Below are positions 31,638-44,173 of a stretch of DNA of 64,000 bases, piece by piece (the stretch's first letter is position 1; each line of letters opens with the position of its first letter). The DNA comes from Streptomyces sp. NBC_01267 (GTDB lineage Bacteria > Actinomycetota > Actinomycetes > Streptomycetales > Streptomycetaceae): NCBI RefSeq assembly GCF_036241575.1, contig NZ_CP108455.1:2184501-2248500 (forward strand), written 5' to 3'. The translations under genes and the position numbers were made by a program. Below the pieces are notes generated by a model, which did not search any database, was not told the DNA's origin, and was given only the letters and a program-made list of their open reading frames with translations.

Positions 31638-31766
31638 CGTGGCAGCCCCTCTCTTCCGACTTCGCGCACACGTCACTGACCTCGGCTCGGCCGGGTGATC
31701 TGCCGTGAAGCCCGGTCCGCCAATGAGGCCGCTACCAGTAACGGACTTAACGCCTGCTGAAGCCCC

Positions 31767-32406
31767 GGACCATCCCCGCGGGCGCGGGGGCAACTTTTCA
31801 CCTCCATGGTGGCTGCCGAGAAATACAAGGACCATCCCCGCGGGCGCGGGGGCAACCCGCCAACACCTTCATGGCCGTGGCCTGCGCAAGGACCATCCCC
31901 GCGGGCGCGGGGGCAACGCGGAGCCGGCCGACGTGAACAACGAACGCACCGGACCATCCCCGCGGGCGCGGGGGCAACCTACGCGGCATGGGGTAGTGGC
32001 GGTGACCCGGCGGACCATCCCCGCGGGCGCGGGGGCAACGCCGCATGTACTTCTTGACTGGCATATGGGCCCCGGACCATCCCCGCGGGCGCGGGGGCAA
32101 CCCCGGGTCCGTGAAGAGGTGAACGCCTTCAACCGGACCATCCCCGCGGGCGCGGGGGCAACTTCGTCTTGGTCGTGGCCGGTCGGGAAGACCTCGGACC
32201 ATCCCCGCGGGCGCGGGGGCAACACAATCAGGGGCCAGGTGCTGCCGTCCGGCTCCGGACCATCCCCGCGGGCGCGGGGGCAACCTCAGCGGCGCAGAGC
32301 CGGGCGATCTGGTGTACGGACCATCCCCGCGGGCGCGGGGGCAACGAAACCAGCAGCCCCGGGCGCCACATCGATCACGGACCATCCCCGCGGGCGCGGG
32401 GGCAAC
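31767..32406 (-). CRISPR. type I-E CRISPR array 1: 11 repeats, 10 spacers
   Basis: Eleven identical 28-bp repeats start at 31767, 31829, 31890, 31951, 32012, 32074, 32135, 32196, 32257, 32318 and 32379. Spacers are 33 bp (two of 34). On the plus strand the repeat begins GGACCATCCCCGCG and ends GGGGGCAAC. The crRNA strand is the minus strand, giving a 5' handle ATGGTCC-type end. The leader side is on the right, next to cas2. No repeat in this array is decayed, which suggests recent activity. Confidence 0.98.
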
Positions 32407-32540
32407 ACTTGCTGAGCTGGGGCTTTACCTGGCGGGGTGGCTGTTTTCGTTTAGTTGTTTTTTGGGGCGGGCTGAGAGGATCAGCCCGTCGAAGTCGACG
32501 GGCTGCCAGCGGTCTCGGCCTGCGGTGCGTACGGCCCATC
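32407..32540 (-). promoter_or_regulatory. array 1 leader, overlapping the 3' end of cas2
   Basis: Only 18 bp separate the last repeat from the cas2 stop codon, so any leader of usual size must lie inside cas2. The AT-rich tract GTTTTCGTTTAGTTGTTTT (32443-32461) encodes the LNEN segment of Cas2. About 130 bp of this stretch reappears next to array 2, which supports a leader function. Confidence 0.7.
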
Positions 32541-32733
32541 CCTGTTCGTTGGCGGCGGGTTCGATGAGGATGGCCTGGCCGTCACCGATGCGGGTGGCCA
32601 GGAGTTCCCAGAGGCGGTCTCGGATGCGGCGGCTGGGGTTGCCGACGAATACACCGGCGCTCGCTTCGACCATCCAGCGTGTGAGGTGTCCGCGCAGGCC
32701 TTCTGGGGCGGCGATGAGGATGATTACGGTCAT
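32425..32733 (-). CDS. cas2: CRISPR-associated endonuclease Cas2e
   Basis: A 102-residue Cas2 of the I-E subtype: MTVIILIAAPEGLRGHLTRW, then SRRIRDRLWELL and DGQAILIEP, ending KKQLNENSHPAR. It forms the Cas1-Cas2 spacer integrase. The start overlaps the cas1 stop (ATGA). Its last codons double as array leader. Confidence 0.95.
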   Translation of the reverse strand: MTVIILIAAPEGLRGHLTRWMVEASAGVFVGNPSRRIRDRLWELLATRIGDGQAILIEPAANEQGWAVRTAGRDRWQPVDFDGLILSARPKKQLNENSHPAR

Positions 32734-33746
32734 GATGTGGATTCGGTGTCGTTGATTTCGGGTCCGATGACCGCGATGTGGTTGTCGGTCATTCCGTGCG
32801 CCGAAAGGTCGGTGTGGCTGGCGTAGTTGGTGCCGCCCGGGACCGTGCCGAGGTGCTCGTCCCACAGGAGGTTGGCTTCGGGGTCGTCGAAGTCTGTTCC
32901 TTCGGGGGTGAGCAGGTTCTTGACGTCGGTGACGATGCGGCTGAGGAGCTTGTCGCGCGCGATGAGGTCGCGGAGGCCGAGTCGGGCGTCGCGTTCTTCT
33001 GTGAGTCCCTGTGCGGCAAGGTCGAAGGCGAGCGGGATGGTGTACTCGGCCTTGTAGAGGTCGGCGATGTCCAGGACGAAGGATGTGGCTTTGCCGGTGT
33101 GGACGAAGCCGAGTCCTGGACTGGCGCCGAGTCCGATGATGACGGCGTGGCAGATGCCGTAGAGGGCGGCGTTGGCGGCGGACAGCAGGCGGTTGAGGTC
33201 GTCGCCTGCTGCGAAGGCGTCGCCCGCTTTGTAGACACGGCCGTTCCAGGTGACTCCGGTGCGGTCCGCTTGTGCACGGTAGTACTTGCGGATGCGGGAG
33301 CCTTCACGACCGCGGAGTTGCTGCATGGTCTGGGTGGAGACGTCCTCACCGGGGAAGCGCATGCTGTACATGGCGCGGGCGACGGCGAGGCGCTCCTTGG
33401 GGCGGGTGACCAGCCAGGCCTGACGGTGCAGGAGGCCGGCACCCCGGCTGGGGCCGAGGCCGGCTGCGTACATGCGGACGCCTTGTTCGCCGACCCAGCA
33501 CACGGTGGTGCCGGAGTCGGCGAGCAGCCGGATGGCGCCGTGGGTGACGCGAGTACCGGGGCCGAGGAGCATGACGGCCACCATGGCCGCGGGTACCCGG
33601 ACGGTCTGCTGCTTGTTGATGATGACGACGGCGTTCTCGTCGCGGTCCAGGTGGCTTCGCTCGACGTAGACGCTGGAGACGCGGTCGACAAGACGGTGCA
33701 GATCCTGGGGGTCGGCTTTCCACCAGATATCGGGCACGGTGTTCAT
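32730..33746 (-). CDS. cas1: CRISPR-associated endonuclease Cas1e
   Basis: A 338-residue Cas1. Metal ligands are visible as Glu148 (GREGSRIRKYY), His216 (GFVHTGKATSF) and Asp226/Asp229 (LDIADLYK). ATG 33746 overlaps the cas6e stop by 4 bp (ATGA). With Cas2 it inserts new spacers at the leader end. Length is normal for I-E (about 300-340). Confidence 0.96.
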   Translation of the reverse strand: MNTVPDIWWKADPQDLHRLVDRVSSVYVERSHLDRDENAVVIINKQQTVRVPAAMVAVMLLGPGTRVTHGAIRLLADSGTTVCWVGEQGVRMYAAGLGPSRGAGLLHRQAWLVTRPKERLAVARAMYSMRFPGEDVSTQTMQQLRGREGSRIRKYYRAQADRTGVTWNGRVYKAGDAFAAGDDLNRLLSAANAALYGICHAVIIGLGASPGLGFVHTGKATSFVLDIADLYKAEYTIPLAFDLAAQGLTEERDARLGLRDLIARDKLLSRIVTDVKNLLTPEGTDFDDPEANLLWDEHLGTVPGGTNYASHTDLSAHGMTDNHIAVIGPEINDTESTS

Positions 33747-34495
33747 GCCCTTTCGGGGAGCGGGGCGAGGGTGAGCAGTCCGCATCCGTAGGCCTTGGAG
33801 GGGCCGATACCGGCCAGGAGGCGCTCGGCGAGGAGAGCGGGGTCGGTGACGCGCAGGCGTCCTTCGAACGTCACGGAGTTCATGACGACGTGAGATTCCT
33901 TCGCGGTGACGGGCCCTTTACTGAAGGAGCGGCGCTGCCGGGTCGTGATGCGGATGTCGCGCGGTGGTTCACCGTCCGTGTCGCGGGTTCCGTCGAGGTG
34001 GGGTGCGGTGGGGACGTCGAAGCCCCAGCGTGCGGTACGGGTGAGGAACCAGCTGAGTTGAGCTGCGGCGGTGCGGTGGCCGAGGCGGAAGCTGCGCCGG
34101 TCTCCGGCTTCGATGCGTTCCTGTTGACGCGCCGTGAGTTTGTCGGGCCGGTTGCTGTTCTGGACGGGGTTGGCGGTGAGGCGGAAGGCGAAACTGCGGC
34201 CCGGTGCCAGTTGCTGCAGAAGCGGGGCGTAGTCGCGTACGGCGTAGTGCTCGCCGTCGGCGCCGGGCCATCCTGCCTGTTCGACCAGGTGGGTCCAGTC
34301 CGGCTTGTCCGTGGTGAGGACGAAGAGCTGGGGGCGGTGGGGGTTGTCCGGGTCGAGCCGCCACAGGGTGCGTTCCTGGTCGGGTGGGCCGGGGAGGCCC
34401 CCTTGGACCGCGGCGTGCATGGCGCGCGGGCTGGCGAGGAGCTTGCGGCTCTCGGCGCGCAGGGGGTTGATGCGGATGCGGGAGAGATACGGCAT
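33743..34495 (-). CDS. cas6e: crRNA endoribonuclease Cas6e
   Basis: A 250-residue Cas6e (Cse3/CasE). N-terminus MPYLSRIRINPLRAESRKLL; C-terminal glycine-rich RNA-binding loop GIGPSKAYGCGLLTLAPL. It cuts the repeat hairpin of pre-crRNA. Catalytic His is expected near the N-terminal HAAVQG segment. ATG 34495 is 5 bp after the cas5 stop. Confidence 0.93.
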   Translation of the reverse strand: MPYLSRIRINPLRAESRKLLASPRAMHAAVQGGLPGPPDQERTLWRLDPDNPHRPQLFVLTTDKPDWTHLVEQAGWPGADGEHYAVRDYAPLLQQLAPGRSFAFRLTANPVQNSNRPDKLTARQQERIEAGDRRSFRLGHRTAAAQLSWFLTRTARWGFDVPTAPHLDGTRDTDGEPPRDIRITTRQRRSFSKGPVTAKESHVVMNSVTFEGRLRVTDPALLAERLLAGIGPSKAYGCGLLTLAPLPERA

Positions 34496-34500
34496 GTCGG

Positions 34501-35301
34501 TCACCAGCCCAGGAGGGCGAAGGGGTCGTGGCCGCCGGTGGTCGGGGGCCGTGCGGGGTCGGGTGTGAGGCCGGTAGGGGCTTCGAGGTAGGTGTGCCGG
34601 GTACGGCGGGTGGTGAAGGTTCGGCTTGTCGGGGCGAAGGACAGGGGAACGTCGTCGCGGACTTCGTCTCCTGCCGGGTCGTCGAGGGTGGCCGGGAGGC
34701 CGATGTGCGCGGCATTGCCGTTCTCGCGCCCCCACCGCTTGCGTACTGCGGGGGTGGCCTGCCACGGCTCCGCACGCAGCACGTCCTCAAGCGAGCCGGT
34801 GCGCTGTCCCAGGGCCAGAGGCTGTGCGGGTACGCAGGATCGGCGGCCGAGGGCGAGGGGGAAGGCCGGGTGGCGTACGGCGTGTTCGAGAGTGGTGATG
34901 AGCTCTTCAGGGCCTTCCACGGCTGCGAGGAAGACGGCGTCCTGGAGGTAGAAGCGCTGGGTGATGTGTGTGTGCTTGGCGGGTGAGGTGGGTTTCTGCA
35001 GGCCCTTGGCGGTCACGGCGGATGAGAGGAGCGGCCGACCTCGGTAGTCGCTGACAGTGTGGTAGTCGCGCAGGATGCTTCCGGGCTGATCGATACGGAT
35101 ACCGAGGCCGAGCCCGGCGAGGTCGTCCAGGGCGGCGTAGCGAGAGCGGCCGGTGGCGGCGGCGAGGAGTCCCACGACTCCGGATTTTGTGGGTTCGGGC
35201 CGGGTTTCACGGCGGTTGAAGGTGCTGCGGTCGCCCCATGACTGGAGCGGGGCGGCGAGCCGAAGCAGGAGGACAGAAGCTGTGTGGTCGGGGGGTGTCA
35301 T
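34501..35301 (-). CDS. cas5e: Cascade subunit Cas5e
   Basis: A 266-residue Cas5 (CasD): LLLRLAAPLQSWGDRSTFNRRET with TKSGVVGLLAAATGR is the family signature. It caps the 5' crRNA handle in Cascade. The start overlaps the cas7 stop (ATGA). Slightly longer than E. coli CasD (224). Confidence 0.95.
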   Translation of the reverse strand: MTPPDHTASVLLLRLAAPLQSWGDRSTFNRRETRPEPTKSGVVGLLAAATGRSRYAALDDLAGLGLGIRIDQPGSILRDYHTVSDYRGRPLLSSAVTAKGLQKPTSPAKHTHITQRFYLQDAVFLAAVEGPEELITTLEHAVRHPAFPLALGRRSCVPAQPLALGQRTGSLEDVLRAEPWQATPAVRKRWGRENGNAAHIGLPATLDDPAGDEVRDDVPLSFAPTSRTFTTRRTRHTYLEAPTGLTPDPARPPTTGGHDPFALLGW

Positions 35302-36452
35302 GCCCGTTCTCCCAGGGCGGTGGTGATGCGGGCGCGCAGGGTGGTGCGCAGGTCGGCGAAGGCGACCGGTTCACCGAAGGCCTGGGTGAGGGTCTCGGCG
35401 GTGTCCTTGGCGCGGGCTTCGCCGGTGGTGAAGGTGTGGCTGGCCGCTCCGTAGAGAGGAGTGTCGCCCCATACCTGTGTGGCGGTGATGTGCTCCTCGG
35501 CGAGACGGCGGGCGGAGTTCGCCTGGATGCCGGCTTCCGCCGCGACGGGCTCTTCGAAGGCGGAGACCAGGTTGACGGGCTGGTCGGTGCGCACGATGAC
35601 CGCGACGAGGCTGGGCCGGGTGCGGTGTGCGAAGGAGTTCTGGTAGCCGGTGGGGGCGGACAGGGCGAAGCTGTCGACGAACCGGTCGAGGGCGTCGAGG
35701 GCGGCTTCGGTGTCACCGCCGAGGTTGTCGGTGAGCTGGGCGAATCCGACAGTGGCGTAGCGGTAGAGGGTGGCGGAGTTGAAGCCGATGGTACCGATCA
35801 TCCCGGCGCCGGTCTCGTCCTGTTCGTTCTGGTCGTCGACGGCGGTGAAGTAGTCGAATTCAAGCTGCGTCTCGTGGGTGGAGATCGCGTGGGCCACCTG
35901 TACGGCGGCGTCGACGTTGAGCTTGGGGATGTCGGCGACCATGCGGCCGAACAGGGCGACGCCCACGGGGTGTCCGGTCGTGAAGCTCTCTGCGACGGGC
36001 AGTTCCTTGACTGCTTCGGCGAGGGCTTTTTCGTCCAGGGCGGCAAGGTCGGTGGCGCGGTCCGTCACAAGAGCGGCCACGGCGTCGAGCTGGGCGTTGC
36101 CGTAGAAGAGGAGGTAGGCGGTGTCACCAGCCTTCTTGCCCTGGCTCAGGCCCAGTTGGGCCAGCAGGCAGGTGGCGATCCGCCCGGCGTCTTCGCGGTC
36201 CAGGCCGGTGTTCTGCGAGATCCGGGTGCTGAGTTCGTTGGTGATGCGCTTGGTGCGGGTGGCGCGGTCGGGCTCAGGGGCCTGGGCGTCGAAGTGTCGG
36301 CGGGACGCCCGCTTCCATGCCTGGGAGGAGACGCGGGAGCGGCGGACTCCGCCGTAGGTGGCTTCCTTGGGGTTTCCCTGATCGTCCCGGTTGAGGTTGG
36401 CCGGCGGGACGGTCTGGACGACGTGCACGTCGATGTAGAGGCGCTGGGTCAT
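35298..36452 (-). CDS. cas7e: Cascade backbone subunit Cas7e (Cse4/CasC)
   Basis: A 384-residue Cas7: LYIDVHVVQTVPPANLNRDDQGNPKEA, then GGVRRSRVSSQAWKRASRR, ending in a QVWGDTPLYGAASHTF strand. Six copies line the crRNA in Cascade. It overlaps cas5 by 4 bp. Upstream, 120 bp without a gene separate it from cse2. Confidence 0.96.
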   Translation of the reverse strand: MTQRLYIDVHVVQTVPPANLNRDDQGNPKEATYGGVRRSRVSSQAWKRASRRHFDAQAPEPDRATRTKRITNELSTRISQNTGLDREDAGRIATCLLAQLGLSQGKKAGDTAYLLFYGNAQLDAVAALVTDRATDLAALDEKALAEAVKELPVAESFTTGHPVGVALFGRMVADIPKLNVDAAVQVAHAISTHETQLEFDYFTAVDDQNEQDETGAGMIGTIGFNSATLYRYATVGFAQLTDNLGGDTEAALDALDRFVDSFALSAPTGYQNSFAHRTRPSLVAVIVRTDQPVNLVSAFEEPVAAEAGIQANSARRLAEEHITATQVWGDTPLYGAASHTFTTGEARAKDTAETLTQAFGEPVAFADLRTTLRARITTALGERA

Positions 36453-36572
36453 CGGGTTGCTCCAGGTCGTGTGAGTGAGCGGTAGTCAGTCGGTCTGTGG
36501 TCGGCGTGTATGCACGCGCGCAAGCCGGAGAATGACGTCTGCGGAAGGAGCGGACGCCAGGTGTGGTGAGGG

Positions 36573-37178
36573 TCAGCGGCCGGATCGCGGAGCCGTCGAC
36601 TTCTGGGTCCAGCCGTAGTAATCCAGGCCCCAGCGGCGGCGCACGCGGGAGCGTGATTCGGGCCGGTTCCAGTCGTGGATGTCGGAGACCAGCCGGTTGT
36701 AGTCAAGGGGCTGCTTGATGTCCTTGAGCTGAGTGACCAGGCCGCGCACCCGCAGTTGGAGCGCTGCCGTCGACGTAGCGGAGAACGCCTGCTGGAAGCG
36801 GGAATCTACTGCCTCGTCACTGGTGCGGTCGTGACGCCGGAGCACAAGCATGGCCCGGCCGAGGCCGACTCCGTCGCGGTGCATCGGCCGGTCCTGGCTC
36901 TGCTGGTGCAGCCCGTAGAGAGCGAGCGCCATGTGCTCGGCTTCCTGCTCGGCCGAGACCTCCCCGCGGCGGGCGGCGAAGTCGTCGACCGGGCAGGTGT
37001 AGAACGGGAACATCTCCAGCACAGTTCCGGCGGGACGGCCCAGACCTCGGCGCAGGACCGCGAGGTCCTCGCCGGGCGGGCGTTTCTCCGCCGCAGTGCC
37101 GTTCTTACGGCGCCAGGCGCCGTCCGCGGCGATGTAGCGGTGCCAGATTCTCTGCTTCGTGAAGTCTTCTTCGGTCAT
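36573..37178 (-). CDS. cse2: Cascade small subunit Cse2 (CasB)
   Basis: A 201-residue helical Cse2: GAWRRKNGTAAEKRPPGEDL, LRRGLGRPAGTVLEMFPFYTC, LVSDIHDWNRPESRSRVRRRWGLDYY. It stabilises target DNA in Cascade. The ATG at 37178 (MTEEDF) gives the usual N-terminus; ATG 37223 is in frame and would add 15 residues. Unlike other cas junctions it is separated from both neighbours by 120-128 bp. Confidence 0.93.
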   Translation of the reverse strand: MTEEDFTKQRIWHRYIAADGAWRRKNGTAAEKRPPGEDLAVLRRGLGRPAGTVLEMFPFYTCPVDDFAARRGEVSAEQEAEHMALALYGLHQQSQDRPMHRDGVGLGRAMLVLRRHDRTSDEAVDSRFQQAFSATSTAALQLRVRGLVTQLKDIKQPLDYNRLVSDIHDWNRPESRSRVRRRWGLDYYGWTQKSTAPRSGR

Positions 37179-37306
37179 GGCCTTGTCCAGACGTGATGAG
37201 GGACTCTGTGTCGCAAAAGGCATGCGGGGACGCCCGGGAGGGCAAGGCCGGATGGCCCCGGCCATGGCATGGCGGATGCAGGGCACCTCGCAAGGTGTGC
37301 CGTCGC

Positions 37307-39013
37307 CTACTGGCCGTCAGGGTCGTGGCGGTTCCGCCGATCGGCGTCGGCCCGGTGGAGGATCTCCGCACGGCGCTTGAGGAAGAAGGCCTCGGCCAGC
37401 GAGACGCGATGCGTACGTTCCGGCTTTCCCTCTCCCTGGGAGACGCTTCTCCCCAGAAACGCTCCGACGGGCACCGCCTGCAGGAGGCGGTCAGCGACCT
37501 CCCAGCTCCGGCGCCAGGCAAGCTGCTCCCAAGCGAGCTGGCCCGCCTCGATCCGCTCCAGGTCCTCCACCCCCCTCATCCCCGTCAACAACCGCCGCAC
37601 CAGCGGGTCCAGGGCGTGCAGGACGAGTTCGCCGGACCGCTGCCCCTTGTCCCAGGGGATCGGTTCGGCGCCCAGAGCACGCCGCAGGTCAGCCGAGAGA
37701 TGATTGACGGCCGTGGCCAACTGCTCTGTCTGCTCCGCGACTTCAAGGAGTGCCGAGCGGACGTCACTGTCTGCTTCCAGCGCGGCCAGTGGGAGGGGCA
37801 ACGCGTCGAACATCACGTCGTCGATGACGGCCGACTGATTGCCGTACGCAACACCGGAGAGTTCCACACGCAGCGGATAGGCCTCGCCGAGGTCGGCCGC
37901 CAGGGCGCCGGCCTGGTCCAGGAGCTTGCTCGTGGCGAACCCGCTCGTCTTCTCCCCGGCATCCCGGGACTGCCGCTCGGGTGCCAGGAGCGCATCGAGC
38001 CCGCGCCACGCAGCCTTCCCGGGCTGGAGACGCAGAGGACGGCGCGGCGGCGCGGTGCCACCTTTACTCCTCCCCGCGCTCCGGCCGCCGGTCGGCTCCA
38101 CACGCCACATGGTGTGCGGCTCGGTTTCGGGTGTGTGAGGCATCCGGTCCCCCGCAGCGACCAGTACGCGCGTCACCCGCAGGCCTTCATCGGTCGCTTC
38201 CGGGAAGAGCCGAATCCGGCGGGACTGCCAGGTCCAGAGGTCCAGGAGCCCTTCGGGTACCCGCACCTCCCACTGGGGGGTGCCGACCGAGCGCAGATCC
38301 GCGGGCTCGCGCCGCCTCCACTGCGGCAGGTCGGTCGACGTCGGCGAAGCCCCGACCGGGAGGTTCAACAGCAGTGTCTCGAACAATGTCCTGCCGACCA
38401 GCAGGGTGACGCCCATCTGCCCGAGAGGCCCGGTCGGATTCCCCGTGCTCTTGCCCGCCTTCGCTTTCGGGTCGCCCACAGCACCCGTTTTGATCGCTGC
38501 GGTGTCCCAGCACTGCGTGTGCAGCAGCCAGTGCGCCGCCTGCGCCGGAGTCAGCGAGAAGACGTCGCCCTCCGTGCGTGAGGCGAACAGCGGCACGTTG
38601 TTGCCGGTGGCCGCGGTCGCCACGATCAGTCCGGCATTCTTCGTCTCGCCCTTCGCGGTACGCAGCCCGGCTACCTGCCCGAAGGGCTGCGCCGGATCGA
38701 ACAGGTCGAACAGGTCGCGCTGCGCGTCCAGGTACGCCTCAAGCCTGCGACGTTGCTCCTGCGACCACCGCCCCGTGGAGAACCAGTTCATCCACTCGCG
38801 CTCGTCGGCCGGACGGCCCAGGGCGTCGAGGACCACGGGCAGTAAGGCCTGCCGGAACACGGCCGGCCTCTGTGTGGGAACATCAACCGCCAAATCGCCG
38901 AACTCGTGCGCCTCCAACAACGCAGTACGCAGCGAACGTTCCTCTGCCGGCCCCCCTGCGGCCGGCGGTAAGAGCAGCCAGGGATCGTCCGTCAGGGAAA
39001 AGCCATGAGCCAT
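37307..39013 (-). CDS. cse1: Cascade large subunit Cse1 (Cas8e/CasA)
   Basis: A 568-residue Cas8e: FSLTDDPWLLLPPAAGGP, SLRTALLEAHEFGDLAVDVPTQ, then LFDLFDPAQPFGQV and GLRTAKGETKNAG with a PAM-reading loop region, WLLHTQCWDTAAIKTG. It recognises the PAM and recruits Cas3. ATG 39013 follows GAGGGGG. It starts the Cascade operon (cse1-cse2-cas7-cas5-cas6e-cas1-cas2). Confidence 0.96.
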   Translation of the reverse strand: MAHGFSLTDDPWLLLPPAAGGPAEERSLRTALLEAHEFGDLAVDVPTQRPAVFRQALLPVVLDALGRPADEREWMNWFSTGRWSQEQRRRLEAYLDAQRDLFDLFDPAQPFGQVAGLRTAKGETKNAGLIVATAATGNNVPLFASRTEGDVFSLTPAQAAHWLLHTQCWDTAAIKTGAVGDPKAKAGKSTGNPTGPLGQMGVTLLVGRTLFETLLLNLPVGASPTSTDLPQWRRREPADLRSVGTPQWEVRVPEGLLDLWTWQSRRIRLFPEATDEGLRVTRVLVAAGDRMPHTPETEPHTMWRVEPTGGRSAGRSKGGTAPPRRPLRLQPGKAAWRGLDALLAPERQSRDAGEKTSGFATSKLLDQAGALAADLGEAYPLRVELSGVAYGNQSAVIDDVMFDALPLPLAALEADSDVRSALLEVAEQTEQLATAVNHLSADLRRALGAEPIPWDKGQRSGELVLHALDPLVRRLLTGMRGVEDLERIEAGQLAWEQLAWRRSWEVADRLLQAVPVGAFLGRSVSQGEGKPERTHRVSLAEAFFLKRRAEILHRADADRRNRHDPDGQ

Positions 39014-39292
39014 CAGTCCCCCTCAATGAAAGCTTCTATGTTTAACGCTAGCAGCGGGAGTGAGGCGCCCGCATGCGTTCTCCACAACCAGGTGCAACAA
39101 TCCGGCCGTTGACCCTCCAGCCGCCGGGCCACCATGGCCGGACTGCGGGGATGATCCCCTTCTCTGTTTGCACAGCAGATCGGGACTCACGTCGCCCCCG
39201 CGCCACGCGGGGCACCGAGCCGCCGGGCGCCAGCCCGGCGGCTCTCCACACTCTTGAGCCCAACTGCAGCCGCGCAACCGGCCACGGGCCCT
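39014..39292 (-). promoter_or_regulatory. cas3-cse1 intergenic region, probable Cascade promoter
   Basis: 279 bp with no convincing gene. The part nearest cse1 (39020-39050) is AT-rich and includes GTTAAACATAGAAGC on the minus strand, a possible -10 region. This suggests that the Cascade genes can be transcribed apart from cas3. Confidence 0.45.
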
Positions 39293-42181
39293 CTACACCT
39301 GCCGGAGCCCGAACTCGTCGTCGTACGACACCGTGAAGTCGCCCAGTTGGGCCCTGCGCGAATCGTCCAGCACCAGAGCACGACTCCGGCGCAACCACGG
39401 ATGCCCGTGCCAACCGGGCAACGGCCCGAACTCCAGGGCAGCTTGTGTGAACTTCGATGGCAACCGCACCACCGAGCCCAGCACCTCGTCCAGCACGTCC
39501 GGCGCCACATCGCCATTGACGCTCAAGGCTCGCCCGGCCAGTGTCCGGAAGACCGCATCGCCCTCATCCCGGACCACCAGGACGACCTCGACGGATTCAT
39601 CACCGTCGCGAACCGCCGCCTGCAACGAACCCTCGTCGCTGCCCGCGGTGGATCCGCCGTAGTGCAGACCTGCCAGCGTCCGCCTCTCGTGCTCACCGTG
39701 TGGGGTCAGCAAGAACTGCTGCGCCTCCTCGGCACGGGCCCGGTCCCGGTCCGCCTGCTCCCGGCAGGCAACCTCACCGGCCTCCTGCCACGCCTCGGGC
39801 AGCAGCGACTCATCCGCCCCGTACACCTTCCCCACCAGCCCAGGCACATCTCCCGGAATCGACCACGCCTCGCCCTCGCCAGGCAGCACAGCAGCGGTTC
39901 GCAGCAGCAGATGACGCCCGTAGATCATCTCGCTGGCAAACCCGAACGCCGGTTCGCGGCCCTCACGCGGCTCGAACCCGGTGACGAACACCCGTGGCAC
40001 GCGCAGCCTGTCCGGGCGCCACGTGTCCTCATGCCGGTGCAGCCGTCCTATGCGCTGCAGCAGAAGATCGACGGGGGCCAGATCCGTGACCAGCATGTCG
40101 GCGTCGACGTCAAAGGACTGCTCAGCGAGCTGAGTTGCCACGAGAATCAACCGGCCGCCCCGGGGCCGCGGCGTCCGCGGGCCCAGTAGACGCAGACTCT
40201 CCTCCGTCAGATCGGCACGCCGGGCAACAGTGAAACGGGCATGCAGAAGGCGTACTTCGTCTTTGCCGAACCGCCCGCGCAGCTCCTCGTAGAGACTCTG
40301 CGCCCGCGCAACTGAGTTGCGGATGACGAGCGCGGTCCCTCCGTCGACGAGTTCACTCGCCAGCAGGTCCCCCACCCTCGCATCCGCGTCACCCTGCAAC
40401 TGCCTCCGCTCCTCACGCGAGGACCGAGCACCGAGCACCGTCTCGGGCACCACCCGCACCGCCACGCCGAGGTCCTCGCGCCAACTGCCCGCAGCATCCA
40501 CATGAACCTGCGGCTCCCCCGAGGCGGGCGACCATGCCACCGTGACACTCGGGTACCCGGGCGGTTCAGGCACCGCGACCCGGAGCTCTTCACGTGACGC
40601 CGCACCGGCCAGATACGCCTCGACCAATGCCTGGCGCTGCGCGGGGGCAAGCGTCGCCGACAGGACGAGCACCGGCACCCCGGCCTGGCCCAGCCAGCGC
40701 AGCGCCTCCCGCAGAAACTGGCTCATGTAGACGTCGCACGCGTGCACTTCGTCCAAAATCACGACCTTGCCCGCCAAGCCCGCCATCCGCAGCATCACAT
40801 GCCGCGTTCGGGTAGCCGCGTACAGCAGCTGATCGACCGTACCGACCACGAACGGGGCCAGCAGCCCACGCTTCGGCCCCAGAAACCACTCGGCAGGCGC
40901 CTGCCGCTCCGGCACGCCGCACACCTCAGGTCCGACGCCGTACGGGTCGTCGTCCAACCCGAACTCATCCACCCCGCAGAACGCCCCGTCCGCATACACC
41001 TCCGCGTCCTCCAGCAGAGCCTTCCACTCCCGGTTGAACGCCCTCTTGCCGTGCAGCAGCACCACCCGGGACGCGAGTTGCCCTTCGATCGCCTCCACCC
41101 ATCGACGCGTGCGGGTGAACATGGGATCGCTGGTCGCCTGCGTCGGCATCCCCACGAACACACCATCCGCGCCGAACCTGGCCGCCAGGACTTCCGCCGC
41201 AGCCTGAGCAGCCTCCGTCTTCCCCTCACCCATCGGCGCTTCGACCACCACAAGCCCCGGGCCGCCCATCCGGCGAACTGCCTCAACCACCATCGATTGC
41301 GAGGGCCGCGGCGCATACCCAAACCGGTCCCGGAACGCCTCTGGCCCTGGCACGTCCAGAGCACCCCAGCCGCCCTGCAGCCCCAGAGCCTTCCACGCCG
41401 ACGCCGCCCGCTCGCGGGAAGCTTCCAGACTCACCAGCCGCAGATCGTCCATGCCCACGAAGAAGCGCTCGTCACTCGCGATCCAGTCCGCCATGACCAC
41501 CAGGCCGCTGAGCTGCAGCTGGAACGCCCTGGACGGAACCACCACCGGCTCCACCTCATGGAGCGCCCCGAACCCGAGCTCCCGGGTGAACACATCCAGC
41601 GAAGCCTGCTGAACCCGACGCCACACCCCCCTACCCCGCAACTGCCCCTTCGCCGAACGAGGCTCCTGCACATCCCGAAGCGAGGGAAACGCACCGTGAT
41701 GCCCAGCCACCAACGGCCACACCCAGTCCAACTGCTCCGTATCCCACCCAGCCTCGGCCAGCAATTCTCGCGCCATCAGCCCGCCGGCCCAGTCGTGACG
41801 CCACCGCTTCTGCTGCTTCGCCCCCGACACAGCAGCGGTCTCAAGCCACGTCAACCCCGCCCGAAGCACAGCCTCCGCGCCCTCCGGCCATAACCGCTGA
41901 TGCGCCGGCGTCGCCTTCCCGCAATCGTGAACCCCGCACAACCACGCGAACAGCCGCCGCCCCTGCCCCGGTCCACCAGCCATCTCGTCCAGCGCCGACC
42001 GCGTCGAACGCGCAAGGAACCCGTCCCACAGCAGCTCCGCAACCGCAGCAGTATCCAGAAGGTGCGCCATCAGAAGGTTCGTGGTGCCGCCTGCCCGCTC
42101 CCGCGACTTCCCCCAGAGCGTCTCCAGCGCCCGCACCACAAAAGGTTCGTAACGTCCACTCAGCTCCCGAACATCCACCAT
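39293..42181 (-). CDS. cas3: CRISPR-associated nuclease-helicase Cas3
   Basis: A 962-residue HD nuclease-helicase fusion. HD domain: His40, H85-D86 (GVHDCGKATPAH), H161-H162 and D232. Helicase: Walker A APMGEGKT (315-322), DEVH at 477-480, SAT at 508-510, and QRIGRLHRH (709-717). It degrades DNA marked by Cascade. ATG 42181 follows GTGGAGG. It is encoded separately from and upstream of the Cascade operon. Confidence 0.97.
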   Translation of the reverse strand: MVDVRELSGRYEPFVVRALETLWGKSRERAGGTTNLLMAHLLDTAAVAELLWDGFLARSTRSALDEMAGGPGQGRRLFAWLCGVHDCGKATPAHQRLWPEGAEAVLRAGLTWLETAAVSGAKQQKRWRHDWAGGLMARELLAEAGWDTEQLDWVWPLVAGHHGAFPSLRDVQEPRSAKGQLRGRGVWRRVQQASLDVFTRELGFGALHEVEPVVVPSRAFQLQLSGLVVMADWIASDERFFVGMDDLRLVSLEASRERAASAWKALGLQGGWGALDVPGPEAFRDRFGYAPRPSQSMVVEAVRRMGGPGLVVVEAPMGEGKTEAAQAAAEVLAARFGADGVFVGMPTQATSDPMFTRTRRWVEAIEGQLASRVVLLHGKRAFNREWKALLEDAEVYADGAFCGVDEFGLDDDPYGVGPEVCGVPERQAPAEWFLGPKRGLLAPFVVGTVDQLLYAATRTRHVMLRMAGLAGKVVILDEVHACDVYMSQFLREALRWLGQAGVPVLVLSATLAPAQRQALVEAYLAGAASREELRVAVPEPPGYPSVTVAWSPASGEPQVHVDAAGSWREDLGVAVRVVPETVLGARSSREERRQLQGDADARVGDLLASELVDGGTALVIRNSVARAQSLYEELRGRFGKDEVRLLHARFTVARRADLTEESLRLLGPRTPRPRGGRLILVATQLAEQSFDVDADMLVTDLAPVDLLLQRIGRLHRHEDTWRPDRLRVPRVFVTGFEPREGREPAFGFASEMIYGRHLLLRTAAVLPGEGEAWSIPGDVPGLVGKVYGADESLLPEAWQEAGEVACREQADRDRARAEEAQQFLLTPHGEHERRTLAGLHYGGSTAGSDEGSLQAAVRDGDESVEVVLVVRDEGDAVFRTLAGRALSVNGDVAPDVLDEVLGSVVRLPSKFTQAALEFGPLPGWHGHPWLRRSRALVLDDSRRAQLGDFTVSYDDEFGLRQV

Positions 42182-42417: not shown

Positions 42418-43280
42418 GGAAGATCCCCCGCGGGCGCGGGCAACTTTGAACGGCCACCAGAGGACCGGACACGGCCCGGACCATCTCCGCAGCTCGTGAC
42501 TACGCAGCCCCGTCCGACCTCAAGGAGTATCCCCACGGACACAGGGCCGACAAGGAGTTCAGCCATCTCCAGGTGCTCTGGCACGGGCCCCCGCGGGCGC
42601 GGGGGCAACCTCTCCGGAGCGACCCGGGACACGGCCAAGGCCGGACCATCCCCGCGGGCGCGGGGGCAACACCGGTGGCGCTCCCTGCCCGGGTGGGAAG
42701 ACCGGACCATCCCCGCGGGCGCGGGGGCAACCGCAGGTCAGCGACGAAATCGGGAAAAACCCGGGGACCATCCCCGCGGGCGCGGGGGCAACCGGCCCGC
42801 TCCCACAGCGACGTCGCCGCCACGCGGACCATCCCCGCGGGCGCGGGGGCAACAGTTCCAGGTGCAGAGTCCTGAGTTGTGCGAGGGGACCATCCCCGCG
42901 GGCGCGGGGGCAACGCTCAACCCCGACCCGGCCGCGCCCTGGTGCCCGGACCATCCCCGCGGGCGCGGGGGCAACGGCCCGCCTTCCACCTGGGAGTTGT
43001 AGCCGAGCGGACCATCCCCGCGGGCGCGGGGGCAACGCGACTCCGGTAGACAGGTCAGGGCCACAATGCGGACCATCCCCGCGGGCGCGGGGGCAACACC
43101 GAAGCCGATGCCGCCGCCGGGCCGCCCACCGGACCATCCCCGCGGGCGCGGGGGCAACGGTTCCGCTGGATCGGTTGCGGGCGGAGATCGGGGACCATCC
43201 CCGCGGGCGCGGGGGCAACGTCAGTCATCAAGTCCCCCTGGATCAGCGCAACGGACCATCCCCGCGGGCGCGGGGGCAAC
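42418..43280 (-). CRISPR. type I-E CRISPR array 2: 11 intact repeats plus about 4 decayed
   Basis: Eleven perfect 28-bp repeats, identical to array 1, start at 42643, 42704, 42765, 42826, 42887, 42948, 43009, 43070, 43131, 43192 and 43253 with 33-bp spacers. To the left lie decayed copies at 42582 (5' third altered), about 42524, about 42478 and 42418-42444 (one base short). Decay at the left and a leader at the right fix the direction: transcribed leftward, oldest spacers at the left. Confidence 0.97.
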
Positions 43281-43410
43281 ACTTCCTGAGCTGGGACTTT
43301 ACCCGGCGAAGTGGCCGTTTTCATTTAGTTGCTTTGGGGGGCGAACCGAGAGGACCAGTCCGTCGAAGTCAACGGCTTGCCAGCGGTCACAGCCTGCGGT
43401 ACGGACGGCG
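43281..43410 (-). pseudogene. array 2 leader with a truncated copy of the cas2 3' end
   Basis: The 130 bp next to array 2 is closely similar to the sequence next to array 1. On the minus strand it encodes AVRTAGCDRWQAVDFDGLVL and PPKQLNENGHFAG, matching the C-terminal third of Cas2, with the same TAA stop 18 bp from the repeat. No cas2 start or N-terminus is present. It is best read as a leader copied together with the cas2 tail. Confidence 0.85.
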
Positions 43411-43487
43411 ACGACCCAAAACCGGCGGAGGCTCACAACGATGCACGCTCGCCGCACCGATTCATGGCACCCCAGCAAAGGGAAAAC

Positions 43488-43554
43488 CACGTTTCCGCAG
43501 GTCAGAACGTTTCGCCTGACCTGCGGGCGGTGGGGCGGGTGGGACTCGAACCCA
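43488..43554. repeat. direct repeat, probable attachment site (att, left)
   Basis: 67 bp matching 50459-50525; the last 27 bp (43528-43554) are identical. They comprise the T-arm and acceptor 3' part of the CAU tRNA gene. The first part forms a perfect 11-bp stem, CCGCAGGTCAG with CTGACCTGCGG (43495-43505 and 43516-43526), the likely original tRNA terminator. Confidence 0.75.
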
Positions 43555-43945: not shown

Positions 43946-44028
43946 GGAGTATCCCCGCAGCCGCGGCGCCGACGCTTCCGGGGTCCCCCCACTCTCCGTG
44001 CCGAGGTGGCCGCGGGCGCGGGGGCGAC
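43946..44028. repeat. two decayed CRISPR-like repeats
   Basis: 43946-43973 matches the intact repeat at about 21 of 28 positions (begins GGAGTATCCCCGC). 44001-44028 shares a 16-bp core, CCGCGGGCGCGGGGGC, and ends CGAC. They are 55 bp apart, near the 61-bp period. Probably relics of an older array. Confidence 0.45.
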
Positions 44029-44173
44029 GAACGGGTCGAACCGTCCGGCCCGCCGGCCGCGGAGTATTACGTCCAACGGACCTCCGGCGCGCCGGCCTTT
44101 CGGCTTGCGAAAGCGGAGCAAGCGGAACAGGGCTCATCCCGAAGGGCGCTGCCCAGACCCGGTTACAACAAGG

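Follow-up and report, generated by a model that had tools for sequence, protein, structure and literature searches.

A type I-E CRISPR leader that overlaps the 3′ end of cas2, and was probably copied with a piece of the gene to a second array, in Streptomyces sp. NBC_01267

In the type I-E CRISPR-Cas locus of Streptomyces sp. NBC_01267, one array begins 18 bp after the stop codon of cas2, and a second array, at the other end of the operon, is accompanied by the end of cas2 without the rest of the gene. Where does the leader of the first array lie, and why does a headless piece of an integrase gene stand beside the second? We addressed these questions by analysing the window, i.e. the whole 64,000-nucleotide stretch of DNA that contains the locus (contig NZ_CP108455.1), together with related loci of other actinobacteria.

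Layout of the locus and the duplicated end of cas2

The features are as follows (position, strand, description and basis).

31767..32406, − strand: array 1, 11 perfect 28-bp repeats and 10 spacers (repeat search)
32407..32462, − strand: array-1 leader core (−1 to −56), made up of 18 intergenic bp, the cas2 stop and the last ~12 codons (blocks common to second-array leaders of other genomes; top PWM rank)
32425..32733, − strand: cas2 (Cas2e, 102 aa; TIGR01873 over residues 1–86)
32463..32535, − strand: part of the cas2 coding sequence, about 24 codons, outside the leader core and copied beside array 2 (direct repeat)
32730..42181, − strand: type I-E operon, cas1, cas6, cas5, cas7, cse2, cse1 and cas3 (profile matches)
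42643..43280, − strand: array 2, 11 perfect repeats and 10 spacers (repeat search)
43281..43336, − strand: array-2 leader core (−1 to −56), 84% identical to 32407–32462 (alignment) and identical in the genome G358
43337..43409, − strand: piece of cas2 without its head, adjoining the array-2 core on the upstream side, about 82% identity with 32463–32535 (alignment)

The complete operon lies between the two arrays, array 1 after cas2 and array 2 beyond cas3, and both arrays are on the same strand as the operon. Its gene set (cas3, cse1, cse2, cas7, cas5, cas6, cas1 and cas2) is that of type I-E. The I-E models of cas1, cas6, cas5, cas7, cse2, cse1 and cas2 were matched over cut-off, and cas3 was recognized by cas3_core and cas3_HD over cut-off and by PRK09694 below its own cut-off. 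The C-terminal 16 residues of Cas2 fall outside the TIGR01873 match. With a period of 61–62 bp and 33–34 bp between 28-bp repeats, the arrays agree with the 28–29 bp palindromic repeats and 32–33 bp spacers of type I-E. The genome's 22 perfect repeats, in arrays 1 and 2, show no sequence difference from one another. None of the 10 spacers of one array recurred among the 10 of the other, neither array gave a phage match at E 0.01, and Pfam searches with five flanking ORFs returned no match.

The cas2 stop codon occupies 32425–32427 and the first repeat of array 1 extends to 32406, which bears out the 18-bp gap given in the first-pass annotation. A direct repeat of 159 nt with 86% identity (32377–32535 versus 43251–43409) comprises the first repeat and 129 bp. 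These 129 bp, at 43281–43409 beside array 2 and at 32407–32535 beside array 1, hold 36 cas2 codons and the same TAA and end within cas2 (32535 and 43409); the two tails translate as AVRTAGRDRWQPVDFDGLILSARPKKQLNENSHPAR and AVRTAGCDRWQAVDFDGLVLSVRPPKQLNENGHFAG. The reported recurrence of the cas2 tail and leader without the remainder of the gene is real, with its end at 43409 rather than 43410. A BLAST search of the array-1 leader against the same genome yielded matches beyond the repeat at two places (1.7e-82 and 2.7e-47), all other listed matches being repeats, and the part of the array-2 copy beyond −58 stands out from dinucleotide shuffles with a z of about 26.

Two further observations concern the surroundings of array 2. 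Degenerate repeats are present at both its sides (about 42425–42610 and 43946–44033), suggesting that an older array may have occupied the site before the present leader came. About 70 bp upstream of the cas2 scar, a stretch resembling the 3′ end of a tRNA (GGTTCGAGTCCCACCCGCCCCACC) is followed by a hairpin-like stretch (43481–43554); ARAGORN predicted no tRNA there, the stretch is matched in many genomes, and it is possibly an integration site.

Leader blocks within the end of cas2

For comparison we fetched 178 loci, which make 179 together with the window. The genus sample consists of 100 segments, none longer than 20 kb, that surround most of the Cas2e matches (108 of 392 genomes of the genus have one) and some leader matches. 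The named sample consists of 78 loci of named actinobacteria retrieved by Cas3 and, because the window's own Cas3 was used, leans to window-like systems. The loci contain 165 cas2-like ORFs (in 161 loci), reduced to 160 (in 158) by dropping five, namely two in L215 and one each in L198 and L210, which look broken, and one in L168, which looks genuine but failed the motif. The tblastn matches drawn by the two L215 queries were rejected as well, these queries not being proper cas2. L262 and L215 (Streptomyces mesophilus for L215), which are probably the same place, contain a class A cas2 whose reading frame is interrupted; repeats still follow it.

Based on their tails, the Cas2 proteins were assigned to classes named here A (the window type,.QLNEN....R), B (NEVKQN..MIT), C17 (VKEMQSPS), C18 (QEMANPL), F (ending in SAR.RR) and W (WSKASKRRRFG). 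Array-1 leaders were found behind 107 cas2 ends; since a few loci represent one place fetched twice, unique leaders were counted, of which there are 101. The distance from the cas2 stop to the repeat is 17 bp in 8, 18 bp in 44 and 21 bp in 9 of them, and is scattered from 24 to 173 bp in the remaining 40. Exactly 17, 18 or 21 bp, in two reading frames, is the spacing in 61 of 101 leaders (32/64 in the genus sample and 29/37 in the named sample). The 18-bp spacing is shared by class F, found in Frankia, Nonomuraea and others.

Three blocks recur in the second-array leaders of most classes. CAGGTCANNAAGT abuts the repeat, TAAA lies near −21, and an A-rich block farther out reads AACTGAATGAAAAC in class A and MAAGRAA..GCAAA in class C. 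At array 1, the outer blocks fall within cas2 in classes A, B, C17 and C18. The window has, directly upstream of the first repeat, conserved sequence common to related arrays, with the cas2 stop at a fixed position within it (18 bp). To compare the two kinds of leader, class-specific PWMs were built from second-array leaders outside cas2 (14 of class A, 7 of class B, and 14 for C17 and C18 combined). Only the 13 bp adjoining the repeat served to choose these leaders, the tested locus was left out, and the window, L209 and L229 were excluded. The true register ranked first of 261 offsets in all 46 array-1 loci (A 17/17, B 9/9, C17 8/8 and C18 12/12). The same procedure gave no top rank in class F (0/15), in which 12/15 had passed in an earlier, more circular version (leaders chosen partly by likeness to array 1, L229 included, window and L209 excluded). 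The C block, equally far from the repeat in both C classes, is translated in different frames: C17 reads it as VKEMQSPS, whereas SQEMAN.. results in C18. Taken together, the PWM register match and the fixed stop spacing in two frames indicate that the last ~12 codons of the window's cas2 are overprinted leader. The embedding of a leader in the 3′ end of cas2, proposed from the letters of the window alone, is thereby upheld in four classes with blocks learned outside the gene.

Composition of the gene points the same way in part. In class A cas2, entropy at codon positions 1/2/3 rises from 0.20/0.20/0.77 in the upstream part to 0.68/0.62/0.96 over the last 12 codons, so that codon position matters less to conservation in the core. 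GC3 falls from upstream to tail in classes A (0.78 to 0.55), C17 (0.79 to 0.50), C18 (0.79 to 0.48) and F (0.80 to 0.61); it is not lower in the tail of class B, and the control class W goes from 0.80 to 0.73 (p 0.056). The Gln codon is CAA in 17/17 cases; pooled Q/E/K codon choice was not significant (p 0.14).

The headless tail and the state of array 2

The first-pass annotation had further proposed that leader function keeps the whole headless tail conserved. This is supported for the inner ~56 bp and not beyond them: among 137 second-array leaders, similarity to cas2 beyond the core reached p 0.005 in one, that of the window, and p 0.05 in 5/137, versus 6/137 in the reversed control. This set excludes leaders, such as L209, that scored 15 or less over the whole core. 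Under softer scoring, with L209 and L082 restored, p 0.005 was reached in 4/139 (window, L209, L084 and L121) and p 0.05 in 18/139, where about 7 are expected. Loci without a cas2 of their own were compared with the window's cas2 in the smaller set and with the window's and L084's in the larger. As the cas2 likeness of the outer part is detectable beside few other second arrays, the whole 129 bp was rejected as a leader.

In L209 (Umezawaea beigongshangensis) the tail is as strong as in the window (z 15.8 versus 15.9 under softer scoring), with identities of 0.84 in the core and 0.76 upstream. L258, an orphan array whose genome has no Cas2e match, has a tail with a broken frame that scores above the shuffle maximum; L082 and L084 look like decayed tails, neither exceeding that maximum, and L229 (Frankia nepalensis) shows by eye a short tail-like stretch. 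Given these several tail-bearing second arrays, leaders have probably been copied together with a cas2 scar on more than one occasion. Separately, Streptomyces sp. CB02056 (L205) has three similar leaders on the − strand (13041, 17741 and 19564) with upstream sequence also in common and no cas2 piece seen, which may represent another case of leader copying.

The nine differences between the two cores of the window sit on low-information leader columns (p 0.009). When the eight true class A cas2 ends are compared in pairs, none of the 28 pairs shows a core more similar than its upstream part (means 0.79 for the core versus 0.91). For headless copies the corresponding counts are 1/8 comparisons in the window, 3/8 in L258, 5/8 in L082 and 7/8 in L084. 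The window copy is 0.84 identical to its own cas2 in the core and 0.82 upstream; against the class A cas2 ends its upstream part is the better conserved in 7/8 comparisons (mean 0.84 versus 0.77 for the core). The core shows no shortage of changes that could be polarised to the array-2 copy (5/56, versus 8/73 in the outer part), with seven differences unpolarised. By codon position 1/2/3, changes assigned to the copy number 6/3/3 and those assigned to cas2 0/0/2 (boundary codon and seven ambiguous positions left out); singleton tests for relaxed coding constraint in the copy gave no significant result (p 0.47 for the whole coding part and 0.65 for the outer part). A tree of tails left the array-2 tail without a settled place (support 21). 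The outer 73 bp of cas2, whose likeness to cas2 is seen beside few other second arrays, are most likely a passenger.

Array 2 itself can be followed in G358, a genome labelled as the same species (locus L257; G358:C36, 5390–5800). It has the same array-2 junction (99% over 308 bp) and an array-2 leader identical to that of the window (132/132), followed by two spacers that are absent among the 20 of the window. The two genomes thus have different spacers behind one and the same leader. In G358 the leader and these two spacers are joined to the flank beyond array 1 (window positions 31766 and 43281), and there is no cas operon at the site, its sole Cas2e match lying elsewhere and belonging to class W. 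The short array of G358 runs into the distal flank of array 1. Of the two genomes, only the window's has the operon between its parallel arrays, a difference that would be expected from recombination between the parallel arrays or from the reverse, gain of the operon. An identical leader with other spacers, and no operon there, makes a live array 2 probable. Among second arrays located upstream of cas3, all eight Streptomyces class A cases run parallel to cas; the other 63 are parallel in 6 and inverted in 57 cases.

Origin of the second array and comparison with known leaders

We propose the following scenario, to which as a whole we assign a probability of roughly 0.7. A leader of some 56 bp, adjoining the first repeat, overlaps the 3′ end of cas2, so that the last ~12 codons and the stop are leader DNA through which cas2 reads; this leader is presumably read by Cas1–Cas2 and/or holds the pre-crRNA promoter. 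Array 2 would have obtained its leader through a copy, by duplication or gene conversion, of the cas2 tail, leader and repeat of array 1. Since any copy of such a leader must include cas2 sequence, 73 bp of the headless gene would have been carried along; selection would keep the leader core in the copy, the cas2 part being most likely a passenger, and array 2 would since have built its own spacers. That a leader is embedded in cas2 and was copied with a piece of the gene is well supported.

Rather than a copy, the headless tail might be what remains of a second cas operon upstream of array 2, deleted down to the end of cas2. Arrays 1 and 2 do have the same orientation, G358 shows that the whole operon can be absent between arrays, and the gapped alignment of L209 can be stretched over most of cas2. 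Beyond −180, however, the L209 stretch is at shuffle level (112/200), and in the window the ~1.4 kb upstream of 43409 resemble neither the remaining cas2 sequence nor cas1 more than shuffles do (28/200 and 77/100 shuffles as high, respectively). The 22/22 identical repeats fit a copy and a remnant alike. We consider a remnant improbable. The earlier proposal that array 2 was seeded by copying leader and repeat stands as the simplest reading, although duplication, gene conversion and a lost-operon remnant are not told apart. Very improbable, in our judgement, is a leader confined to the 18 bp past the stop, with the conservation in cas2 due to selection on the protein and the array-2 tail a decaying passenger throughout. 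The lack of an upstream block in class F would agree with it, as would polarised changes that are not fewer in the core, but in four classes the blocks from −56 to −22 are retained by second-array leaders that have no cas2, and one block is read in two frames.

The conserved core could also be mainly a promoter of pre-crRNA and not a docking site for the integrase. By eye, a TAAA or TAGCAT-like block near −21 and, 16–17 bp upstream of it, an A-rich block have the spacing of −10 and −35 elements, but the sixth base of the −10 box does not appear conserved. The repeat-adjacent CAGGTCA..AAGT is well conserved in A, F and C, as expected for integration, and in S. avermitilis the −10 region is predicted to overlap the first repeat (PMC4762764). 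A mainly promoter role thus seems unlikely, if worth keeping in mind. The preferred reading, a leader core overlapping cas2 and copied with it, accommodates either function.

A broader picture can be offered tentatively, as somewhat less than an even bet. In actinobacterial I-E systems the end of cas2 might have overprinted the leader on more than one occasion, in different frames and with the stop as part of the leader, welding the integrase gene to its own target site. Arrays seeded by array 1 would then carry a cas2 scar, and parallel arrays would make the cas operon a cassette that recombines in and out, leaving behind a leader-armed array, as in G358. If the overlap is true, an array could be disabled by recoding its cas2 in situ, and the variety of Cas2 C-termini would stem from that of the leaders. 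Annotation of arrays and leaders, which generally looks to intergenic DNA for the latter, could miss or truncate those overlapping cas2. The cas2 scars beside second arrays would constitute a natural record of array birth, and G358 and the window provide a pair with and without the cas operon within one species.

Among known systems, the I-E leader of E. coli is short, lies directly upstream of the first repeat and directs polarised integration; it is intergenic and IHF-dependent, whereas the core in the window overlaps cas2. Class W Streptomyces I-E loci resemble the window in their repeat-adjacent TAAA and CAGGTCA-like blocks, and they usually have a second array beside cas3. Their cas2 stop lies 79–173 bp before the repeat, which makes the core intergenic, unlike that of the window. 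In S. avermitilis, whose repeat is carried by 6 of 392 genomes, two arrays likewise flank a complete I-E operon, with AT-rich leaders next to the first repeat, and both acquire spacers in vivo (4/144 and 17/144 colonies) (PMC4762764). Its CRISPR II is transcribed opposite to cas, whereas array 2 of the window is parallel, and the parts of the report consulted mention no overlap of leader and cas2 (PMC4762764). Among the open-access matches listed in our literature search, no description of a leader within cas2 or of a partial cas2 beside an array was encountered. On this comparison, the leader overlapping cas2 is a variant of known CRISPR leaders.
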